A stretch of 35,902 nucleotides of DNA, taken from positions 1 through 35,902 of the forward strand of contig JAUNUI010000028.1 in assembly GCA_030538255.1 (NCBI GenBank), given 5' to 3'. The stretch comes from Pelistega sp. GTDB lineage: Bacteria > Pseudomonadota > Gammaproteobacteria > Burkholderiales > Burkholderiaceae_B. The notes under the pieces are model-generated. The model did no database searches. It saw only the letters and a program-made list of their open reading frames with translations, and was not told where the DNA came from. A program made the translations under genes and the position numbers. Numbering within the stretch: the first letter of the stretch is position 1; each line of letters starts with the position of its first letter. Positions 1,037-26,811 of the stretch are shown one piece after another.

Positions 1037-1069
1037 AAAAAAATGCCCAAAATCTTGCGATTTTGGGCA
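1037..1069 (-). terminator. Rho-independent terminator of the small RNA
   Basis: A perfect 11-bp stem (1044-1054 with 1059-1069) is closed by a GCAA tetraloop on the RNA, a GNRA type, and followed on the minus strand by seven U (1043-1037). There is no T-run on the plus side, so it works for leftward transcription only. This fixes the strand of the small RNA. Confidence 0.9.
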
Positions 1070-1197
1070 AAATCCACCAAAGGAGGAGGGTGGAGGAGAC
1101 AACTTGCTGGGCTTAGCGACTTGCTCAAACCTAACTTAATGACTAAGCGACTCTATAAGACATTCGCTTTCTGCTAGGGAGCTAATTAAGCACCAAT
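1037..1197 (-). ncRNA. Putative trans-acting small RNA with CUCCUCC anti-Shine-Dalgarno loop
   Basis: A minus-strand unit of about 161 nt is bounded by a strong sigma-70-type promoter (start near A1197) and a strong intrinsic terminator. Just before the terminator the RNA has UCCACC (1094-1089) pairing with GGUGGA (1078-1073), a perfect 6-bp stem whose 10-nt loop reads CUCCUCCUUU. A second CUCCUCC (1098-1092) overlaps the 5' arm. Loop-exposed C/U-rich motifs of this kind are known from alpha-proteobacterial sRNAs such as the CcsR and alpha-r families, where they bind ribosome binding sites. I do not recognise the RNA family itself. It does not match 6S RNA or tmRNA as I know them. The 5' half contains a repeated AGUCGCU(U/A)AG. 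Function is inferred only. Confidence 0.7.
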
Positions 1198-1203
1198 GAA
1201 TCT

Positions 1204-1232
1204 ATTATACGAAGACTTTTTGTGCAATGCAA
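1204..1232 (-). promoter_or_regulatory. Sigma-70-type promoter of the minus-strand small RNA
   Basis: Read on the minus strand: -35 TTGCAT (1232-1227), a 17-base spacer, then a consensus -10 TATAAT (1209-1204). Transcription should begin near A1197. It matches the consensus better than any other promoter candidate in the window. Confidence 0.8.
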
Positions 1233-2941: not shown

Positions 2942-4216
2942 GTGCAATTACAAGATGTGAAATTGGCTGTTGTTGGTTTAGGTTATGTGGGCCTGCCATT
3001 GGCTGTTGAATTCGGCAAGAAGCGTGAGCTGCTTGGTTTCGATATTAATCAAAAGCGCGTTAAGGAATTGCAATCTGGTGTTGACCACACGCTTGAAGTG
3101 GATGCTGATGAACTACAAGAGGCTAAGGGCTTGCGTTATAGTGCGGATGCGCAAGATTTGGCCGCCTGCAATACCTATATTGTGACGGTGCCTACACCTA
3201 TTGATGAGTTCAAACAACCTGATTTAACGCCTTTGGTAAAAGCCAGTGAGACTCTCGGCAAAGCCTTAAAGCAAGGTGATATCGTGATTTATGAATCAAC
3301 GGTGTACCCAGGCGCCACTGAAGAAGTCTGCGTGCCTGTCTTGGAGAAAGTTTCAGGCCTAAAATATAATGTTGATTTCTACTGTGGTTATAGCCCAGAG
3401 CGTATTAACCCAGGCGATAAGCAACACCGCGTATCGACGATTAAGAAAGTGACTTCGGGCTCAACTCCTGAGATTGCTGAAGTTGTGGATCAGCTTTATA
3501 AAACCATTATTACGGCAGGTACTCATAAGGCTTCAAGTATTCGTGTGGCCGAAGCCGCCAAGGTCATTGAGAACACACAGCGTGATGTGAATATTGCCTT
3601 GATTAATGAGTTGGCATTGATTTTCAATCGCTTAGGGATTGATACGCAAGCCGTGCTTGAGGCGGCGGGTACGAAGTGGAACTTCTTGCCATTCCGTCCA
3701 GGTCTAGTAGGTGGCCACTGTATCGGTGTGGACCCGTATTATTTAACCCATAAGGCGCAAGCAATTGGCTATCATCCAGAAATTATTCTGGCCGGTCGCC
3801 GCTTAAATGACTCGATGGGTTCTTATGTGGTGTCTCAGTTGGTGAAAGCCATGACTAAGCGTTGTATTCAAGTACAAGGTGCGCGTGTTCTAGTAATGGG
3901 TTTAACCTTCAAAGAGAATTGTCCAGATCTACGCAATACGCGTATTGTGGATATTGTGAAAGAGCTTGGCGAATATAATATTCAAGTGGATGTCTACGAC
4001 CCATGGGTAGAGGTAGAGGAAGCCCAACATGAATATGGTATTACTCCTATTGCCAATCCTCAAGCGGGTGAATATGACGGCATTATCTTAGGTGTTGCAC
4101 ATCAAGAGTTTGTAGAGATGGGTGCCCAAGCTATTCGTGCGCTAGGTAAGCCGAATCATGTTCTTTACGATTTAAAATATATTCTCAAAGCGGAAGATGC
4201 AGATATTCGTCTGTAA
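2942..4216 (+). CDS. tviB: TviB/WbpO-type UDP-N-acetylhexosamine 6-dehydrogenase
   Basis: NAD-dependent oxidation of UDP-GlcNAc or UDP-GalNAc at C6 to the uronic acid, in the cytoplasm. The 424-residue product is near-colinear with Salmonella TviB. It has a Rossmann GLGYVG (residues 12-17), the [11 protein letters not shown] block, the [16 protein letters not shown] helix, and the catalytic Cys at about residue 260 in [12 protein letters not shown]. The C-terminus (DPW.., VLYDLKYIL.. and a final RL) also follows TviB. The start is GTG 2942 with AAGGAG six bases upstream, the best ribosome binding site in the cluster. With the next gene it makes UDP-GalNAcA. I am sure of the family; the preferred UDP-sugar is inferred. 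Confidence 0.95.
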
Positions 4217-6760: not shown

Positions 6761-7882
6761 ATGGATAAAGCAGCTCAGTTAAGTATTATGATTGTGATTC
6801 CTTCACTGCGCGGCGGTGGTGCCGAGCGAGTGACGGTGGACTTGGCATCGCATTGGATCTTTTTAGGGCATGAGGTGGTATTGGTGACTTTCTCGGACCC
6901 GAGCACCGATGTGTATCAGTTTGATAAGCGTATTAAGCGCATTAGTCTAGCGCATTTAGAGCGTAGTTCAGGTGCTTTAGGCCATATACGCAAAACCCTA
7001 GCCATACGTAAACTCATGGGTCAGTACCGTCCTGAAATCTGTTTAGGCGTGATGACGACCTGTTCAGTGTATAGTGTCTTAGCGGCTATGGGATCACCAA
7101 CGCGGGTTATAGCGACCGAGCATGCCCATCCGCCTTCACAGAAAATCTCTTCTTTATGGCAACGCTTACGCCGCTTTGCCTATCCACGTGCGGATGCCGT
7201 AATTGCCTTAACCCAACTCTCTTCACAGTGGTTATGTGATCATGTGATGGGTTGTAAACCGACTGTGATTGCGAATGCCGTGCATTGGCCTATGCAGGAT
7301 GTTGAGCCTAAGGTGATTTGCTATAAGCCGAGTAATATCCATTGGTTATTAGCGGTTGGCCGCTTACATGAGGAAAAAGGCTTTGATAAATTAATTCAAG
7401 CTTTTAGTAAAATTGCTGAGGATGTCCCGAACTGGCAGCTTATTATCTTAGGGGAAGGGGATGAGCGTGAAGCCTTGCAAAAACAAGTCAAAGAAGTGCA
7501 CTTGCAAGAGCGAATTCTGTTGCCAGGACGTGTGGGTAATTTAAGTCAATGGTATTTAGCTGCCGATTTATTTGTTTTAAGCTCACGTTTTGAAGGCTTG
7601 TCGAATAGTTTACAAGAGGCAATGTCTTACGGCTTGCCTGCAATTTCCTTCGATTGTGATAGTGGGCCCAGAGAGATTATCCGTGATGGCGTGGATGGCA
7701 TTCTTGTGCGTCCCAACCAAGATGTGGATGCCTTAGCGAATACCTTGCGTGATCTGATGAGTGATCCTGAGCGCCGTGCTCAGCTTGGTCAAGAGGCTAA
7801 GGAGGTGCGCGAGCGCTTTTCAACACGCAGCATCTACCAACAGTGGGATCGATTATTTGCGCAACTGCTCAGCATTAAATAG
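6761..7882 (+). CDS. GT4-family glycosyltransferase
   Basis: Cytoplasmic or peripheral GT-B enzyme adding a sugar to the lipid-linked chain. The 373 residues show the GT4 plan: N-terminal acceptor domain with GGGAERVTVDLA (residues ~18-29), EHAHPPSQKISS in the acceptor loop, then a donor domain with AVGRLHEEKGFDKLI, LGEGDERE, and the E-x7-E motif in FEGLSNSLQEAMSYGLP followed by DSGPREII. It resembles the GalNAc transferases of the PglH/PglJ/AmsD group, but the donor and linkage cannot be read from sequence. It is a paralogue of the gene at 9956-11062. The spacer to the flippase is four bases and to the amidotransferase eight. Confidence 0.88.
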   Translation: MDKAAQLSIMIVIPSLRGGGAERVTVDLASHWIFLGHEVVLVTFSDPSTDVYQFDKRIKRISLAHLERSSGALGHIRKTLAIRKLMGQYRPEICLGVMTTCSVYSVLAAMGSPTRVIATEHAHPPSQKISSLWQRLRRFAYPRADAVIALTQLSSQWLCDHVMGCKPTVIANAVHWPMQDVEPKVICYKPSNIHWLLAVGRLHEEKGFDKLIQAFSKIAEDVPNWQLIILGEGDEREALQKQVKEVHLQERILLPGRVGNLSQWYLAADLFVLSSRFEGLSNSLQEAMSYGLPAISFDCDSGPREIIRDGVDGILVRPNQDVDALANTLRDLMSDPERRAQLGQEAKEVRERFSTRSIYQQWDRLFAQLLSIK

Positions 7883-7890
7883 GACTGATT

Positions 7891-9786
7891 ATGTGTGGAA
7901 TTATTGGCTTAATTGGTCAGTTTTCGCAGAAACAAGAAAAACTCGAACAAGCATGCGAGCGCCTTAAGCGACGCGGCCCCGATAGTCGGGGAGTCTGGTT
8001 AAGTGCCGATCAGAAGGTTGGATTAGCCCACGTGCGCTTAGCGATTCAAGATCTCTCTGAGCATGGGCATCAACCAATGTTAAGCGCTGATCAGCGCTAC
8101 GTGATGGTCTTTAATGGTGAGATTTATAATCATTTTGCCTTGCGTGATGCGCTCGGTAGTCAGGCCCCACAATGGCGTGGTCACTCTGATACGGAAACCT
8201 TACTAGCCTGCTTTGTCGCCTGGGGTGTAGAGCAAACCTTGCGTCAAGCCGTGGGTATGTTTGCTTTTGCCTTATGGGACCAAGAGCAAGGGAGCTTAGT
8301 GTTAGGGCGTGACCGTTTTGGTGAAAAGCCCTTGTACTATACGCAACAAGCGCAAGGTTTGCTCTTTGCTTCAGAGTTGAAAGCATTCATGCCAATAGCA
8401 GAATTCGATAAGCGTATCAATCGCGGTGCTGTTGCACTATTGATGCGTCATAATTATATTCCTGCGCCACACACCATCTTTGAGCGGGTTTATAAATTAC
8501 CACCCGCCTCCTATCTGCAATTAGACGCTGAGCACTTATTCTCACAACATGAATTACCTGAACCTAAGCGCTATTGGTCTGCTTATGAGGTCGCCAAGCG
8601 TAGTAGCGCACGCGTATTTGCGGATGACGATAAAGCGATTGATGCATTTGAGCGTGTGCTGAGTGATGCGGTTCAAGGGCAGATGCTGGCCGATGTCAGT
8701 CTTGGTGCCTTTTTATCAGGTGGCACCGACTCTTCATTGATTGTGGCTATGATGCAAAAGCAAAGCACGCAAGCGGTGAAGACTTTTGCCATTGGCTTTG
8801 AGGAACAAGCCTATAATGAGGCGCCTTTCGCTAAAGCGGTGGCCGAGCATCTAGGTACAGACCATACTGAACTGTACATGAATGGTAATGACGCCTTAAC
8901 TATCTTCCAATCCTTGGCGGATGTATATAGTGAGCCTTTTGCCGATTCCTCTCAATTGCCTGTCTTGTTGATGATGGGACTCACCGCACAGCATGTTAAG
9001 GTCGCCTTATCGGGTGATGCGGGTGATGAATTGTTCGGTGGTTATAAGCGCTATGCAAGGGCACAAGCTTGGTGGGATCGCTGTCAGAAAATTCCTTCTG
9101 CAATGCGTCCAACTGTGGCGAAGATGCTGAGTACTTTGGCGAGTAGCTTGCCCTTAGGTCAAAAACAGGAGAAGTGTGTGCAATTCGCCCAGCTCCTACG
9201 CGCCAAGAATACCGTGGAGTTTTATCGACCGTTTGTTTCTTATTGGAAGCAGCCCGAGAACTTGGTGCTCCAATCGGAGGCCTTGAGTACATGTTTTGAT
9301 GGTAAGCCATTGCGTAATTTACAAGATACGATGCAAATCTTAGATACGCTTTCGTACCTGCCCGATGATATCTTAGTGAAGGTGGATAGGGCGGCGATGT
9401 ACCATTCCTTAGAAACGCGAGTGCCGCTCTTGGATCACCGCGTATTTGAATTTGTCTGGGATATTCATCCGCGCTATAAGCAACGTGATGGTCAATCGAA
9501 GTGGCTGATGAAGCAGTTGCTCTATCGTCATGTCCCTCAAGCCTTACTTGAGCGCCCCAAGAAAGGCTTTTCTGTGCCACTTGGACAATGGTTACGTGGT
9601 CCCATGAAAACCTGGGCCTCAGATCTTTTATCCCAAGATCGCTTGCAGCAGCAGGGCTTATTTGATGCGTCTTGCGTACAGCGCATTTGGCAGCAACACC
9701 AACAAGGCGCGGGTGATTGGAGCGCGCATCTATGGGGAATCTTAATGATGCAAGCCTGGTTAGATACGTATCAAATTCGCGTCTAA
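7891..9786 (+). CDS. asnB: AsnB/WbpS-type glutamine-dependent amidotransferase
   Basis: Class II (Ntn) glutamine amidotransferase fused to an asparagine-synthetase ATP-pyrophosphatase domain, 631 residues. The N-terminus MCGIIGLIG gives the catalytic Cys2 after Met removal, followed by RRGPDS and VFNGEIYNH glutaminase motifs. The synthetase half has the PPi loop SGGTDSS (~residues 276-282), LSGDAGDELFGGYKRY, and ETRVPLLDHRVFEF. Such paralogues in O-antigen loci (WbpS in P. aeruginosa O6, beside wbpO and wbpP as here) are thought to convert the uronic acid carboxyl to the amide. Context therefore suggests formation of a GalNAcA amide rather than free asparagine, though asparagine synthesis cannot be excluded. 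ATG 7891 is preceded by AGGA. Confidence 0.9.
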   Translation: MCGIIGLIGQFSQKQEKLEQACERLKRRGPDSRGVWLSADQKVGLAHVRLAIQDLSEHGHQPMLSADQRYVMVFNGEIYNHFALRDALGSQAPQWRGHSDTETLLACFVAWGVEQTLRQAVGMFAFALWDQEQGSLVLGRDRFGEKPLYYTQQAQGLLFASELKAFMPIAEFDKRINRGAVALLMRHNYIPAPHTIFERVYKLPPASYLQLDAEHLFSQHELPEPKRYWSAYEVAKRSSARVFADDDKAIDAFERVLSDAVQGQMLADVSLGAFLSGGTDSSLIVAMMQKQSTQAVKTFAIGFEEQAYNEAPFAKAVAEHLGTDHTELYMNGNDALTIFQSLADVYSEPFADSSQLPVLLMMGLTAQHVKVALSGDAGDELFGGYKRYARAQAWWDRCQKIPSAMRPTVAKMLSTLASSLPLGQKQEKCVQFAQLLRAKNTVEFYRPFVSYWKQPENLVLQSEALSTCFDGKPLRNLQDTMQILDTLSYLPDDILVKVDRAAMYHSLETRVPLLDHRVFEFVWDIHPRYKQRDGQSKWLMKQLLYRHVPQALLERPKKGFSVPLGQWLRGPMKTWASDLLSQDRLQQQGLFDASCVQRIWQQHQQGAGDWSAHLWGILMMQAWLDTYQIRV

Positions 9787-9955
9787 GTGCAGAGTAGATT
9801 GAAATCAATTTACGATGCTAGTGTGAAATTAGAAGCCTTATTAAATCTATGCTAAGTAAGAGCAGTTTATTAAAATGCATTAAATGATGGTGGTGTGACA
9901 TTAACGTCTTATTAAATCTGCATCAAAGTGACAAGCGAGAAATCTGGATAAACAC
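9787..9955. repeat. Intergenic spacer with 12-bp exact and ~28-bp diverged direct repeats
   Basis: cttattaaatct occurs at 9837-9848 and 9908-9919 (period 71). The match extends leftward in diverged form (gtgtgaaatta... and gtgtgacatta...). The first bases after the asnB stop (tagat...atcaa...agtg) also weakly echo the gene's last codons. No gene or clear promoter is visible. Confidence 0.6.
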
Positions 9956-11062
9956 ATGAAGATAATGTTGTTGTTAAGTTCTTTAAATGCCGGTGGTGCG
10001 GAACGTGTTGGTGTCAGTTTGGCGAATGCCTGGGTGGAGCGAGGATACGAGGTGGTATTGGTAGCAACATTCAATCAGGGTTGCGGGGAGTCATTCTATC
10101 CCTTAGATGATCGTGTCCGTGTTGTATGGCTAAGTCAGCTAATGCCTCAAAATAAATTGCTTAAGCGAGGTCTTAAGCCTTTTTACTTACGTCGTGTTAT
10201 GCGGCAAGAGCGCCCTGATATCATGGTGTCGTTCTTAACTAATGTGAATGTCATGAGTCTGATAGCAAGCATGGGTTTACGGATTCCCTTGATTGTTTCG
10301 GAGCGCTCTAATCCATTGCACCAGAAAATTAGTTCAGCATTAAAATCTTTACGCCGTCGCTTATATCCGCGTGCGGATGTGGTGATGCTGCAAACCAAGC
10401 AAGCAGCCGATGAGTTCCAAGCGAGTATGCCTGCTTTAAAGTCCTTGGTGGTGATGCCCAATCCCTTACCTCTTGATTTGCAGCTGAGTGCGCTTAGTGT
10501 TGAGAAGCCACAACGGATTATGGCAATGGGGCGTTTGGTCAAGAGTAAGCAGTTTGATTTATTGATTCATGTGTTTAGCCAAGCCAGTAAGCAGATACCT
10601 GGGTGGACCTTACATATTTATGGTGATGGCCCTGAGCGAGAGAAACTCCAGCAGTTGATTGGGAGTTTGAATAAAACCGAATCGATTTTCCTTGAAGGCA
10701 AAACTACTGAGCCCTGGGAAAAAATGCGTGAGGCGCAAATTTTCGCCATGACTTCACGCTTAGAGGGTTTTCCGAATGCCATGATGGAGGCGATGGCAAT
10801 GGGCTTGCCCGTGATTGCCTTTGACTGCCCAAGTGGTCCGCGAGAAATTAGCCAAGAAGGGCAATGCGCGCAGATTGTTCCCTTAGATGATACACAACAA
10901 TTTCAAGCTGGCTTGATACGTATGATGCAAGATACAGCGTATCGACAGAGCATGGCAAGCTGTGGGCAAGAGCATGTGTTTACGCACTACTGTCAAGAGC
11001 AGGTGTTAGGGCAGTGGGATGCTTTGTTTGAACAACTTCTAGATCGGCCCTTGAAGCATTAA
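9956..11062 (+). CDS. GT4-family glycosyltransferase (paralogue of 6761-7882)
   Basis: GT-B glycosyltransferase of 368 residues, starting MKIMLLLSSLNAGGAERVG. Landmarks match the first GT of the cluster one for one: GGAERV, SERSNPLHQKISS, RLYPRADVV, AMGRLVKSKQFDLL, GDGPERE, then the E-x7-E motif in LEGFPNAMMEAMAMGLPVIAFD and SGPREIS. The two probably arose by duplication and now flank the amidotransferase gene. The start is ATG 9956; a clear Shine-Dalgarno is absent. The next gene begins 24 bases after its stop, so co-transcription is likely. Donor sugar unknown. Confidence 0.88.
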   Translation: MKIMLLLSSLNAGGAERVGVSLANAWVERGYEVVLVATFNQGCGESFYPLDDRVRVVWLSQLMPQNKLLKRGLKPFYLRRVMRQERPDIMVSFLTNVNVMSLIASMGLRIPLIVSERSNPLHQKISSALKSLRRRLYPRADVVMLQTKQAADEFQASMPALKSLVVMPNPLPLDLQLSALSVEKPQRIMAMGRLVKSKQFDLLIHVFSQASKQIPGWTLHIYGDGPEREKLQQLIGSLNKTESIFLEGKTTEPWEKMREAQIFAMTSRLEGFPNAMMEAMAMGLPVIAFDCPSGPREISQEGQCAQIVPLDDTQQFQAGLIRMMQDTAYRQSMASCGQEHVFTHYCQEQVLGQWDALFEQLLDRPLKH

Positions 11063-11086
11063 GAACGAAACGGAATTAAGATAACT

Positions 11087-12424
11087 ATGAAGCGTAAATT
11101 ACGTGTACTGCACATTATTAGTGGGCTTGGTCAAGGCGGCGCCGAAAGCGTGTTGACTCGATTAGTCGCGCATTCACAAGAAGAGAATATTGTTTTATCC
11201 TTCGCTGATGAGGGCATGTATGGCCCCCAGATTCGCCAAGCGGGTGTTGAGCTACATTGCCTAGGAATGCGCCCAGGCCGTTTAAGTGTGGGCGACTTTT
11301 CGCGTTTAATAAAGAAAATCCGTGAGTTAAAACCTGATGTGGTGCAAACCTGGATGTATCATGCGGACTTTATTGCCGGACTCGCAGCGCGTATGGCTGG
11401 CTGCAAGCATATTGCTTGGGGGATTCGTAATTCTGGTTATCAACTTAAGCAAAGCTCACGTAGCGCGTATTATCTAGCGCGCCTGAGTGGTCTAATGAGC
11501 CGCCTAATTCCACAGAAAATTATTGTATGTGGAGAGCAGGCGGCGCAATTACATCAAGCCTGGGCCTATGATAAAAATCGAATGATTGTTATCCAGAACG
11601 GTTACGATCTTAGCCGCTGGCAAGACGACTCCTTAGGAGCAGAGCAACTTCGACATGCATGGCAGATTAAACCTGGTGAACAGCTCTTGGGCTTTGTGGC
11701 GCGCTGGAATCCCTTAAAAGATCATACGAGTTTATTGCGCGCCTATGCATTACTGAAGCAAGAGCGACTTAAGCAAGGCCGCATGGCACCGCGCTTAGTG
11801 TTAGTAGGTAAGGGCTTGGAGACGAGCAATGCGCCATTGATGGCTTTGATTGATGAGCTAGGGTTAAAAGCTCAAGACGAGACGCAGCTAATGCAAGCGT
11901 TAGCAACGGCACAAACGCTAGATGCTGAGCACTCTGACTTGCAAGGGGACAATAAGCCGCTGACCTCTGAGCACTCTGACTTGCAGGATGACAATAAGCT
12001 AGTGGCCTCACAAGCTTCTACGCTACAGGAGGGCAGATCTAATCATACCGACATTATTCTTCTTGGGATGCGCAGCGATGTACCCACGATTATGTCGGCT
12101 CTAGATATTCATGTCTTATCCAGTATTGCTGAGGGCTTTCCGAATGTGGTGGCTGAGGCCATGGCTTGTGGCACCCCTTGTGTGGTGACGGATGTAGGTG
12201 ATGCGGCCTTGATGGTGGGTGATTTGGGCTGGGTCGCACAGCCGAGTAATCCAGAGGATTTGGCGCAGAAGATAGCCCAAGCTCTTAACTATCTAGAGAG
12301 TCTGAGCATGCAAGAACAAGAGCAGTATGCGCGACGGGTTCGTCAATTTGTTTTGGATAATTTTAGTTTATCGACAATGGTGGATCGCTATGAACAGACT
12401 TGGCGAGATATGGTTGAGGCTTAG
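11087..12424 (+). CDS. GT4-family glycosyltransferase with an inserted repeat segment
   Basis: GT-B enzyme of 445 residues, about 60-70 longer than usual. The acceptor half begins RKLRVLHIISGLGQGGAESV and contains VQTWMYHADFIAGLAARMAG, as in WbpT-like transferases. The donor half has GFVARWNPLKDHTSLL, LVGKGLE, and the motif block HVLSSIAEGFPNVVAEAMACGTP. Between LIDELGL and IILLGMRSDVP, normally only a few residues apart, lies an insertion at ~residues 262-320 containing two tandem 14-residue units beginning EHSDLQ. The core motifs are intact, so the enzyme is probably active. A diverged copy of its last 13 codons plus stop lies just downstream. ATG 11087 has a weak ribosome binding site. Confidence 0.87.
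   Translation: MKRKLRVLHIISGLGQGGAESVLTRLVAHSQEENIVLSFADEGMYGPQIRQAGVELHCLGMRPGRLSVGDFSRLIKKIRELKPDVVQTWMYHADFIAGLAARMAGCKHIAWGIRNSGYQLKQSSRSAYYLARLSGLMSRLIPQKIIVCGEQAAQLHQAWAYDKNRMIVIQNGYDLSRWQDDSLGAEQLRHAWQIKPGEQLLGFVARWNPLKDHTSLLRAYALLKQERLKQGRMAPRLVLVGKGLETSNAPLMALIDELGLKAQDETQLMQALATAQTLDAEHSDLQGDNKPLTSEHSDLQDDNKLVASQASTLQEGRSNHTDIILLGMRSDVPTIMSALDIHVLSSIAEGFPNVVAEAMACGTPCVVTDVGDAALMVGDLGWVAQPSNPEDLAQKIAQALNYLESLSMQEQEQYARRVRQFVLDNFSLSTMVDRYEQTWRDMVEA
11926..12009 (+). repeat. 42-bp tandem duplication inside a glycosyltransferase gene
   Basis: Units 11926-11967 and 11968-12009 match at 35 of 42 positions and encode 14 residues each (EHSDLQGDNKPLTS and EHSDLQDDNKLVAS). A third weak unit may follow (SxLQ at the same phase). 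The frame is kept. Confidence 0.9.
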
Positions 12425-26052: not shown

Positions 26053-26811
26053 ATGATTAAAAAAATTGATCCCACGCTTCTTACTACGCGTGTTGAGCAA
26101 GGTAAGTTGAATACAAGCGAGTCTATCGATAATGATATTATGCCTTTAAGTACCTTGCGTCAGGCGCGCTTCGATGGTGAAGTGACGCGTGAGGCATTGC
26201 TTGAGGAGGCTTGTAAGGTCTTTGCGGAGCAAGGTTATTCAGCAGGCTCGAGTAAGACAATTTGCCAACGTGCTAATGTGAATCTAGCCTCGGTGAATTA
26301 TCACTTTGGTGGTAAGTCTGCACTGTACCGTGAGGTATTAATTGAAGCACAACGCCAGTTGACGGATAATTTATTACTTAAGCTCGATACGATTGGCGAT
26401 ATTATGAGTCTGCGTGAGCGAGTCCGCACCTATTTAGAACATATTTTCGGGGTGTTTTTGCTTGAGGAAACCCCGTGGTATGCGAAAGTCTTGGTGCGTG
26501 AGTATATCGAACCGTCTTCCTTTGGGATGGAGTTGATGAAGCGTGGTGGCTTTCCTAATATCACGCGGATGAGCGAGATGTTTGCTAACTACTTTGAGCT
26601 TCCTGAGGATCATCCAACCGTCTTACGCGCAGTTACGTACACGTTCTCAATGGCGATGGGTAGTTTGGCTTTTGAGTCAACCTTAACAGCGAATTCTGAT
26701 GCGGTACGACGTATCCGTTCTGATAGTGATGCGGCATTGAAAGAGTTAAGTTTTGTGTTGATGACCGGGATGGATGTCTTGAAAATGAGTATGAAGACAT
26801 TTAAACCATAA
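26053..26811 (+). CDS. TetR-family regulator, CecR/YbiH-like
   Basis: DNA-binding repressor of 252 residues. After a ~45-residue N-terminal extension comes a TetR helix-turn-helix (EEACKVFAEQGYSAGSSKTI, CQRANVNLASVNYHFGGKSALYREV). The C-terminal region (VLVREYIEPSSFGMELM..) looks like the DUF1956/CecR_C ligand domain. The ligand is unknown. ATG 26053 is preceded by GGACGGAG. It lies 89 bases upstream of the AsmA-family gene in the same direction, so it may control it or itself; I see no obvious palindrome in front of either. Confidence 0.87.
   Translation: MIKKIDPTLLTTRVEQGKLNTSESIDNDIMPLSTLRQARFDGEVTREALLEEACKVFAEQGYSAGSSKTICQRANVNLASVNYHFGGKSALYREVLIEAQRQLTDNLLLKLDTIGDIMSLRERVRTYLEHIFGVFLLEETPWYAKVLVREYIEPSSFGMELMKRGGFPNITRMSEMFANYFELPEDHPTVLRAVTYTFSMAMGSLAFESTLTANSDAVRRIRSDSDAALKELSFVLMTGMDVLKMSMKTFKP

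Follow-up and report, generated by a model that had tools for sequence, protein, structure and literature searches.

A Pelistega ortholog of the Bordetella small RNA S17 with a candidate PhaR operator at its promoter

The small RNA S17 of Bordetella pertussis is located between coq7 and a glycosyltransferase gene and is described, in the available parts of the original report, as a 190-nt RNA that starts at an A 7 bases past the promoter TTGCAT-17-TACTAT (PMC11722255). According to the same parts, RNase E converts the 190-nt RNA to a 67-nt form (tested in E. coli), S17 co-precipitates with Hfq, and its Site 1 represses BP2158, with compensatory mutations as evidence; an unnamed repressor acting on the S17 promoter is postulated (PMC11722255). 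Of 11 conserved S17 targets, RIL-seq captured 4, as stated in the available text of a second study (PMC12235514).

Further relatives are the 'double-hairpin RNAs' ncS27, ncS03, ncS05 and ncS62 of Burkholderia cenocepacia, which share with the RNA described here the assignment to Rfam family RF02278, two hairpins and anti-Shine-Dalgarno stretches (PMC5688073). For ncS27 a long and a processed form are reported, and RF02278 relatives in Burkholderia rise in glucose medium and under starvation, two of three also in stationary phase; the authors call the control of RNA accumulation unknown (PMC5688073). Effects on carbon-source use, and an effect of NcS27 on tyrosine and phenylalanine breakdown pathways, are described in the available part of a review. 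The Neisseria RNAs NmsRA and NmsRB (RF02877) likewise carry two anti-Shine-Dalgarno motifs, and they repress TCA-cycle mRNAs (PMC5362039).

In Sinorhizobium meliloti the RNA MmgR (alpha-r8) is Hfq-dependent and tied to carbon storage; as far as the available text states, it is repressed by AniA/PhaR, and this control relies on a dyad that lies between -35 and -10 (PMC8401924). PhbF (= PhaR) of Herbaspirillum seropedicae gives a footprint that covers TG[N]TGC[N]3GCAA, and phaP1 and phbF are repressed; TGC and GCA triplets 3 bases apart are said to be essential, and PhbF leaving the DNA upon accumulation of PHB is hypothesised (available parts of PMC3206438). Here we present an RNA gene of Pelistega sp. 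that joins these subjects.

The window, a stretch of 35,902 nucleotides, carries on its minus strand at 1037-1101 a match to RF02278 (Betaproteobacteria_toxic_sRNA) of 65.9 bits against a gathering cut-off of 50 bits, covering model positions 1-64 in full. By analogy with S17 this core would be the counterpart of the stable processed form S17S, which has 67 nt in S17. It is the only RF02278 copy above the cut-off in the window's genome, whereas B. cenocepacia has several per genome (PMC5688073). With NmsRb (RF02877) the RNA scores 45.1 bits, under the gathering cut-off of 52 bits, which leaves it outside NmsR; Neisseria differs in addition by its tandem siblings (PMC5362039). None of the four Rfam matches with E <=1 bears the name CcsR or alpha-r, a comparison by family name only; the alphaproteobacterial MmgR is absent by name as well, and it is reported to lower phasins (available part of PMC8401924). 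A weak RF02278-like match of 24.4 bits (E 0.014) was seen at G000:C33:17011-17058 (L002).

The RNA gene is flanked by two conserved neighbours on the plus strand: coq7 at 91-762 (NF033656, 303 bits, cut-off 180) and a gene for an MraY/WecA-like glycosyltransferase at 1465-2583 (TIGR02380, 73 bits, under its cut-off of 326). Glycosyltransferase proteins with 72-86% identity adjoin the RNA in 24 of the 29 relatives' loci examined. The location between these two genes, the TTGCAT-17-TAnnAT promoter, the core sequence with conserved Sites 1 and 2 and the hairpins agree with those described for S17 (CT_433) in the available parts of PMC11722255 and PMC12235514; the orientation differs. Because neighbours, promoter type and core are shared with S17, the RNA adds one more member to a described family and occupies a locus already known for it; judged by sequence comparison, it is the ortholog of Bordetella S17. 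The window's organism apparently belongs to the same bacterial family as Bordetella, and 34 of the 37 genomes examined of this family carry the RNA. Named matches that share promoter and core come mostly from Bordetella, Achromobacter and other Alcaligenaceae, but also include Cupriavidus cauae and metagenome genomes.

Compared with S17, the RNA is inverted relative to its neighbours and has a predicted length of about 161 instead of 190 nt, transcript and processing being predicted. In five RNA-bearing genomes of the window's genus (the window; L019, L025, L026, L030), RNA and promoter are inverted with respect to the glycosyltransferase gene, versus a co-directional arrangement in 20 of 20 loci of other genera in which the two could be located; another five loci showed no such gene close by. 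The distance from promoter to core is a few dozen bases in the sister species L019, L025, L026 and L030 versus about 100 in the window, so the length of the leader is not conserved. One genome (G042, L092-L098) contains nine RF02278 matches, one of them below the cut-off and two about 300 bases apart. Beyond the sRNA locus in the window a polysaccharide cluster occupies 2942-4216 and 6761-12424 (plus), with a TviB-like UDP-GlcNAc dehydrogenase, GT4-type glycosyltransferases and a sub-cut-off likeness to PEP-CTERM/XrtA glycosyltransferases.

The sigma-70 type promoter TTGCAT-17-TATAAT is located at 1204-1232 (minus) and has the architecture of the published S17 promoter, with the -35 hexamer TTGCAT at 1227-1232, the -10 hexamer TATAAT at 1204-1209 and a spacer of 17 nt. 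An A at 1197, 7 bases past the -10 hexamer, is the putative start, placed by analogy with S17, and gives a predicted S17L-like primary transcript of about 161 nt at 1037-1197. Site 1, the anti-Shine-Dalgarno stretch GTCTCCTCC, lies at 1092-1100, with its 3' end inside the stem of hairpin 1 (1073-1094). In this 6-bp stem TCCACC at 1094-1089 pairs with GGTGGA at 1078-1073 around the 10-nt loop CTCCTCCTTT (1088-1079), which is Site 2; the second CTCCTCC lies 5' of hairpin 1 and extends into its 5' arm. An intrinsic terminator at 1037-1069 follows with 11 pairs and a GCAA loop (hairpin 1069-1044) and a T7 tract (1043-1037). The strand from 1197 to 1030 folds with -52.7 kcal/mol (z -3.87), a value equalled by none of 200 shuffles. 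Promoter, C/U-loop hairpin and terminator, as listed in an earlier sequence-only reading, are thus all present on the minus strand of 1037-1232.

That reading's statement that no protein frame fits holds for ATG starts: the 161-nt transcript contains no ATG-started frame of at least 10 codons. TTG/GTG frames of 11-30 codons are present and stay open through the terminator. The window RNA shows no evident counterpart of the 32-residue frame described in B. pertussis S17.

A simple promoter scan did not list TTGCAT-17-TATAAT in its output, and since TTGCAT agrees with TTGACA at 3 of 6 positions, the promoter by itself is not beyond chance; its conservation, in contrast, is. All 30 aligned family loci contain the core, and 29 of them also have the start of the -35 hexamer together with the site in the spacer; promoter, loop and terminator, whose conservation in relatives had been proposed as a test, are retained in the aligned loci. 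Covariation in the stems, likewise proposed as a check, was not shown by an alignment of 38 cores: the predicted consensus is confined to the first stem, where it has 5 pairs, one of them changed on both sides in a single sequence. As the first stem hardly varies and the terminator is out of register in this alignment, covariation neither supports nor refutes the structure.

Conservation at the promoter passes beyond the -35 hexamer into the spacer, and 30 aligned loci share CTTGCAnYGCACAA. At 1220-1232 (minus), overlapping the -35 box and the spacer, the window has the 13-mer TTGCATTGCACAA, a candidate PhaR/PhbF operator on the grounds of its genome copies, its conservation in the family and its association with PhaR. 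It shares the core TGCN3GCAA with the PhbF/PhaR regulon, in whose description sRNA promoters are unmentioned as far as the available text of PMC3206438 goes. Both essential triplets are present (TTGTGCAATGCAA on the other strand), and relative to the published TG[N]TGC[N]3GCAA one flanking base is T instead of G, a form that most phasin sites of the family also have. The whole genome contains four copies of TTGCANNGCACAA versus none of the reversed control; the sRNA promoter accounts for one of them, and a second precedes a phasin gene (TIGR01841) by about 90 bases. PhaC, PhaR (TIGR01848, 158 bits, cut-off 109) and phasin are all encoded in this genome. Upstream of phaR a 6.0-bit site was detected in the window's genome and none clear in four relatives; the phaR reading frame itself contains an 11.2-bit match.

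TTGCN3GCA is located upstream of the best RNA copy in 33 of 34 genomes of the family that carry the RNA, and each of these 33 also has PhaR. The exception, G004 (L025), is the sole RNA carrier among the four family genomes of the 37 without PhaR (G003, G004, G005, G013) and is also devoid of phasin; its promoter keeps the TTGC of the -35 hexamer and the -10 hexamer, and the GCACAA half is gone. This loss was recorded ahead of the PhaR search. Within the window's genus, the absence of PhaR from three genomes may go back to a single loss. The same record judged the promoter of G018 degenerate, yet PhaR is present there; the site was later located farther upstream, at -222. Four further RNA copies of the family are without TTGCN3GCA, one each in G018 and G031 and two in G019. 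The family genomes G003, G005 and G013 are small and contain neither the RNA nor PhaR nor phasin.

For comparison with phasin genes a matrix was derived from the 33 family sRNA sites, G004 excluded; the counts of plain patterns are independent of it. Matches of at least 6 bits occur upstream of 38 of 39 phasins versus 14 of 145 control windows, and matches of at least 8 bits upstream of 35 of 39 versus 4 of 145, where the phasins are one per genome from 39 of the 47 phasin-bearing genomes and the controls are 375-base pieces of sRNA loci, mostly not gene-upstream.

The association with PhaR was followed across the order among 97 PhaR-positive RNA carriers, of which 60 were taken (59 outside the window's family), and 38 PhaR-negative carriers, of which 4 less than 90% complete and 6 without listed positions were left out. 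The measure fixed in advance was TTGCN3GCA, predicted for a majority of PhaR-positive genomes and near chance for PhaR-negative ones; TGCN3GCA and the matrix came later. TTGCN3GCA was detected in 34/60 PhaR-positive and 5/28 PhaR-negative genomes (Fisher p 0.001). The expected majority is thus seen, whereas the PhaR-negative share exceeds the shuffled 2% because of two PhaR-negative families that retain the motif, f14 (3/6) and f43 (2/5). The contrast is stronger with the matrix, which outside the family hits upstream of the RNA in 43/59 PhaR-positive versus 4/28 PhaR-negative genomes (Mann-Whitney p 1.4e-9; column-shuffled matrices average 1.3/59 PhaR-positive genomes). The looser TGCN3GCA occurs in 48/60 versus 5/28 genomes. 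PhaR presence clusters by lineage, so the rows are not independent and the p-values overstate the case; the fairer measure is the count by family, which for TGCN3GCA is 19/20 PhaR-positive (one locus from the window's family is counted among the 20) versus 2/9 PhaR-negative. The PhaR-positive family f21 is without TGCN3GCA (0/3), and extra RNA copies outside the window's family have it in 9 of 20. The site is also seen in Cupriavidus cauae (L219). RF02278-like elements that score 30-33 bits, under the cut-off, were observed 3' of phasin in two genomes of other families, G055 (L042/L086) and G057 (L087), among 40 phasins examined. Their CTCCTCC stretch lies 40 bases (G055) and 19 bases (G057) past the phasin stop codon, and these elements would therefore be part of the phasin mRNA.

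We favor, with a probability of about 0.75, the reading that the RNA is an S17 ortholog which represses uptake and catabolic genes and is switched by PhaR via TTGCATTGCACAA with the level of PHB. Comparison of sequences supports the orthology, the site common to phasin genes and the association with PhaR. An unlikely alternative is that the S17 ortholog has a constitutive promoter, or one under another factor, the 13-mer being merely a conserved -35 hexamer with spacer. TTGC does belong to the -35 hexamer, S17 is transcribed in vitro with RNA polymerase alone according to the available text of PMC11722255, and a similar site is kept in some PhaR-negative genomes. However, GCACAA belongs to the spacer and not to the hexamer, and G004 has lost this half while keeping TTGC and the -10 hexamer; the same kind of site occurs upstream of 38/39 phasins, and in other families the distance from site to core varies.

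Considerably less probable still is a generally growth-inhibiting 'toxic' RNA masking Shine-Dalgarno sequences at large, as the name of the family and the phenotypes seen when relatives are overexpressed could suggest. Against it, overexpression of S17S in E. coli left exponential growth unimpaired, as reported in the available part of PMC11722255, and a search of ATG starts in the window's genome found GGAGGAGAC exactly once at a distance of 1-8 bases from the start codon, so that perfect targets are rare. The sequence-only reading had proposed a trans-acting repressor of ribosome-binding sites, possibly from a family so far undescribed for this lineage. The repressor part is supported by experiments on the ortholog S17 and the relatives ncS27 and NmsRA/B. 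The undescribed family, like a chance pair of promoter and terminator, has nothing in its favor beyond that reading itself and is refuted by the RF02278 score of 65.9 bits, the 34/37 family genomes carrying the RNA and the conserved neighbours with S17 at the same locus; its probability is close to nil.

In the PhaR-switched reading, the sigma-70 promoter would yield the RNA of about 161 nt, which is probably cut to a stable form of about 65 nt. At low polymer levels PhaR most likely sits on the operator over the -35 hexamer and spacer, and little RNA would be made; once poly-3-hydroxybutyrate accumulates, PhaR would be drawn off and the RNA made together with phasin. The two C/U stretches, with Hfq, would then pair to purine-rich Shine-Dalgarno regions and lower the translation of uptake and catabolic genes, and an RNA made as stored carbon builds up would stop further carbon intake. 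Binding of PhaR at the sRNA promoter and this physiology are what we infer. The PHB-linked model agrees with the expression of related RNAs in glucose medium and under starvation and with the reported carbon-source effects; PhaR alone does not account for the Bvg dependence of S17.

With less confidence, though still on the favorable side, we extend the model to most PhaR-bearing lineages of the order (presumably Burkholderiales): RF02278 RNAs would form the RNA component of the PHB regulon, and release of PhaR would produce the RNA beside phasin, in two lineages as the 3' end of the phasin mRNA, and turn carbon uptake and catabolism off. If so, RF02278 RNAs would be the betaproteobacterial counterpart of MmgR, the postulated repressor of S17 transcription would be PhaR, and carbon-storage status would directly set the translation of catabolic genes in a large bacterial group, with relevance to PHB production strains. 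No mention of a PhaR link for the betaproteobacterial RF02278 family was found in the open-access literature searched, including the available parts of PMC11722255, PMC5688073 and PMC12235514. The RNA is known already, and the new part is the candidate PhaR switch at its promoter: an operator common to phasin genes and lost along with PhaR names a candidate for the switch of a widespread RNA.

The single exact target site is located upstream of maiA (TIGR01262, 279 bits), a gene of tyrosine and phenylalanine breakdown, and was returned by both of two exact-pattern searches. The duplex of Site 1 with maiA has -17.8 kcal/mol, matched by 1 of 1000 shuffles; a duplex run with the whole RNA was uninformative (-24.3 versus a shuffle mean of -22.9). 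Pairing at -12 or lower is found for 6 of 30 maiA starts, a set that contains the window's own, and for 25 of 260 control starts; it is thus not conserved clearly above the control level, which makes maiA a lead and not a conserved target. The gene at 26053-26811 (plus) of the window, whose protein has no NCBIfam match at 1e-20, has a start preceded by GGAGACA, which is complementary to Site 1.
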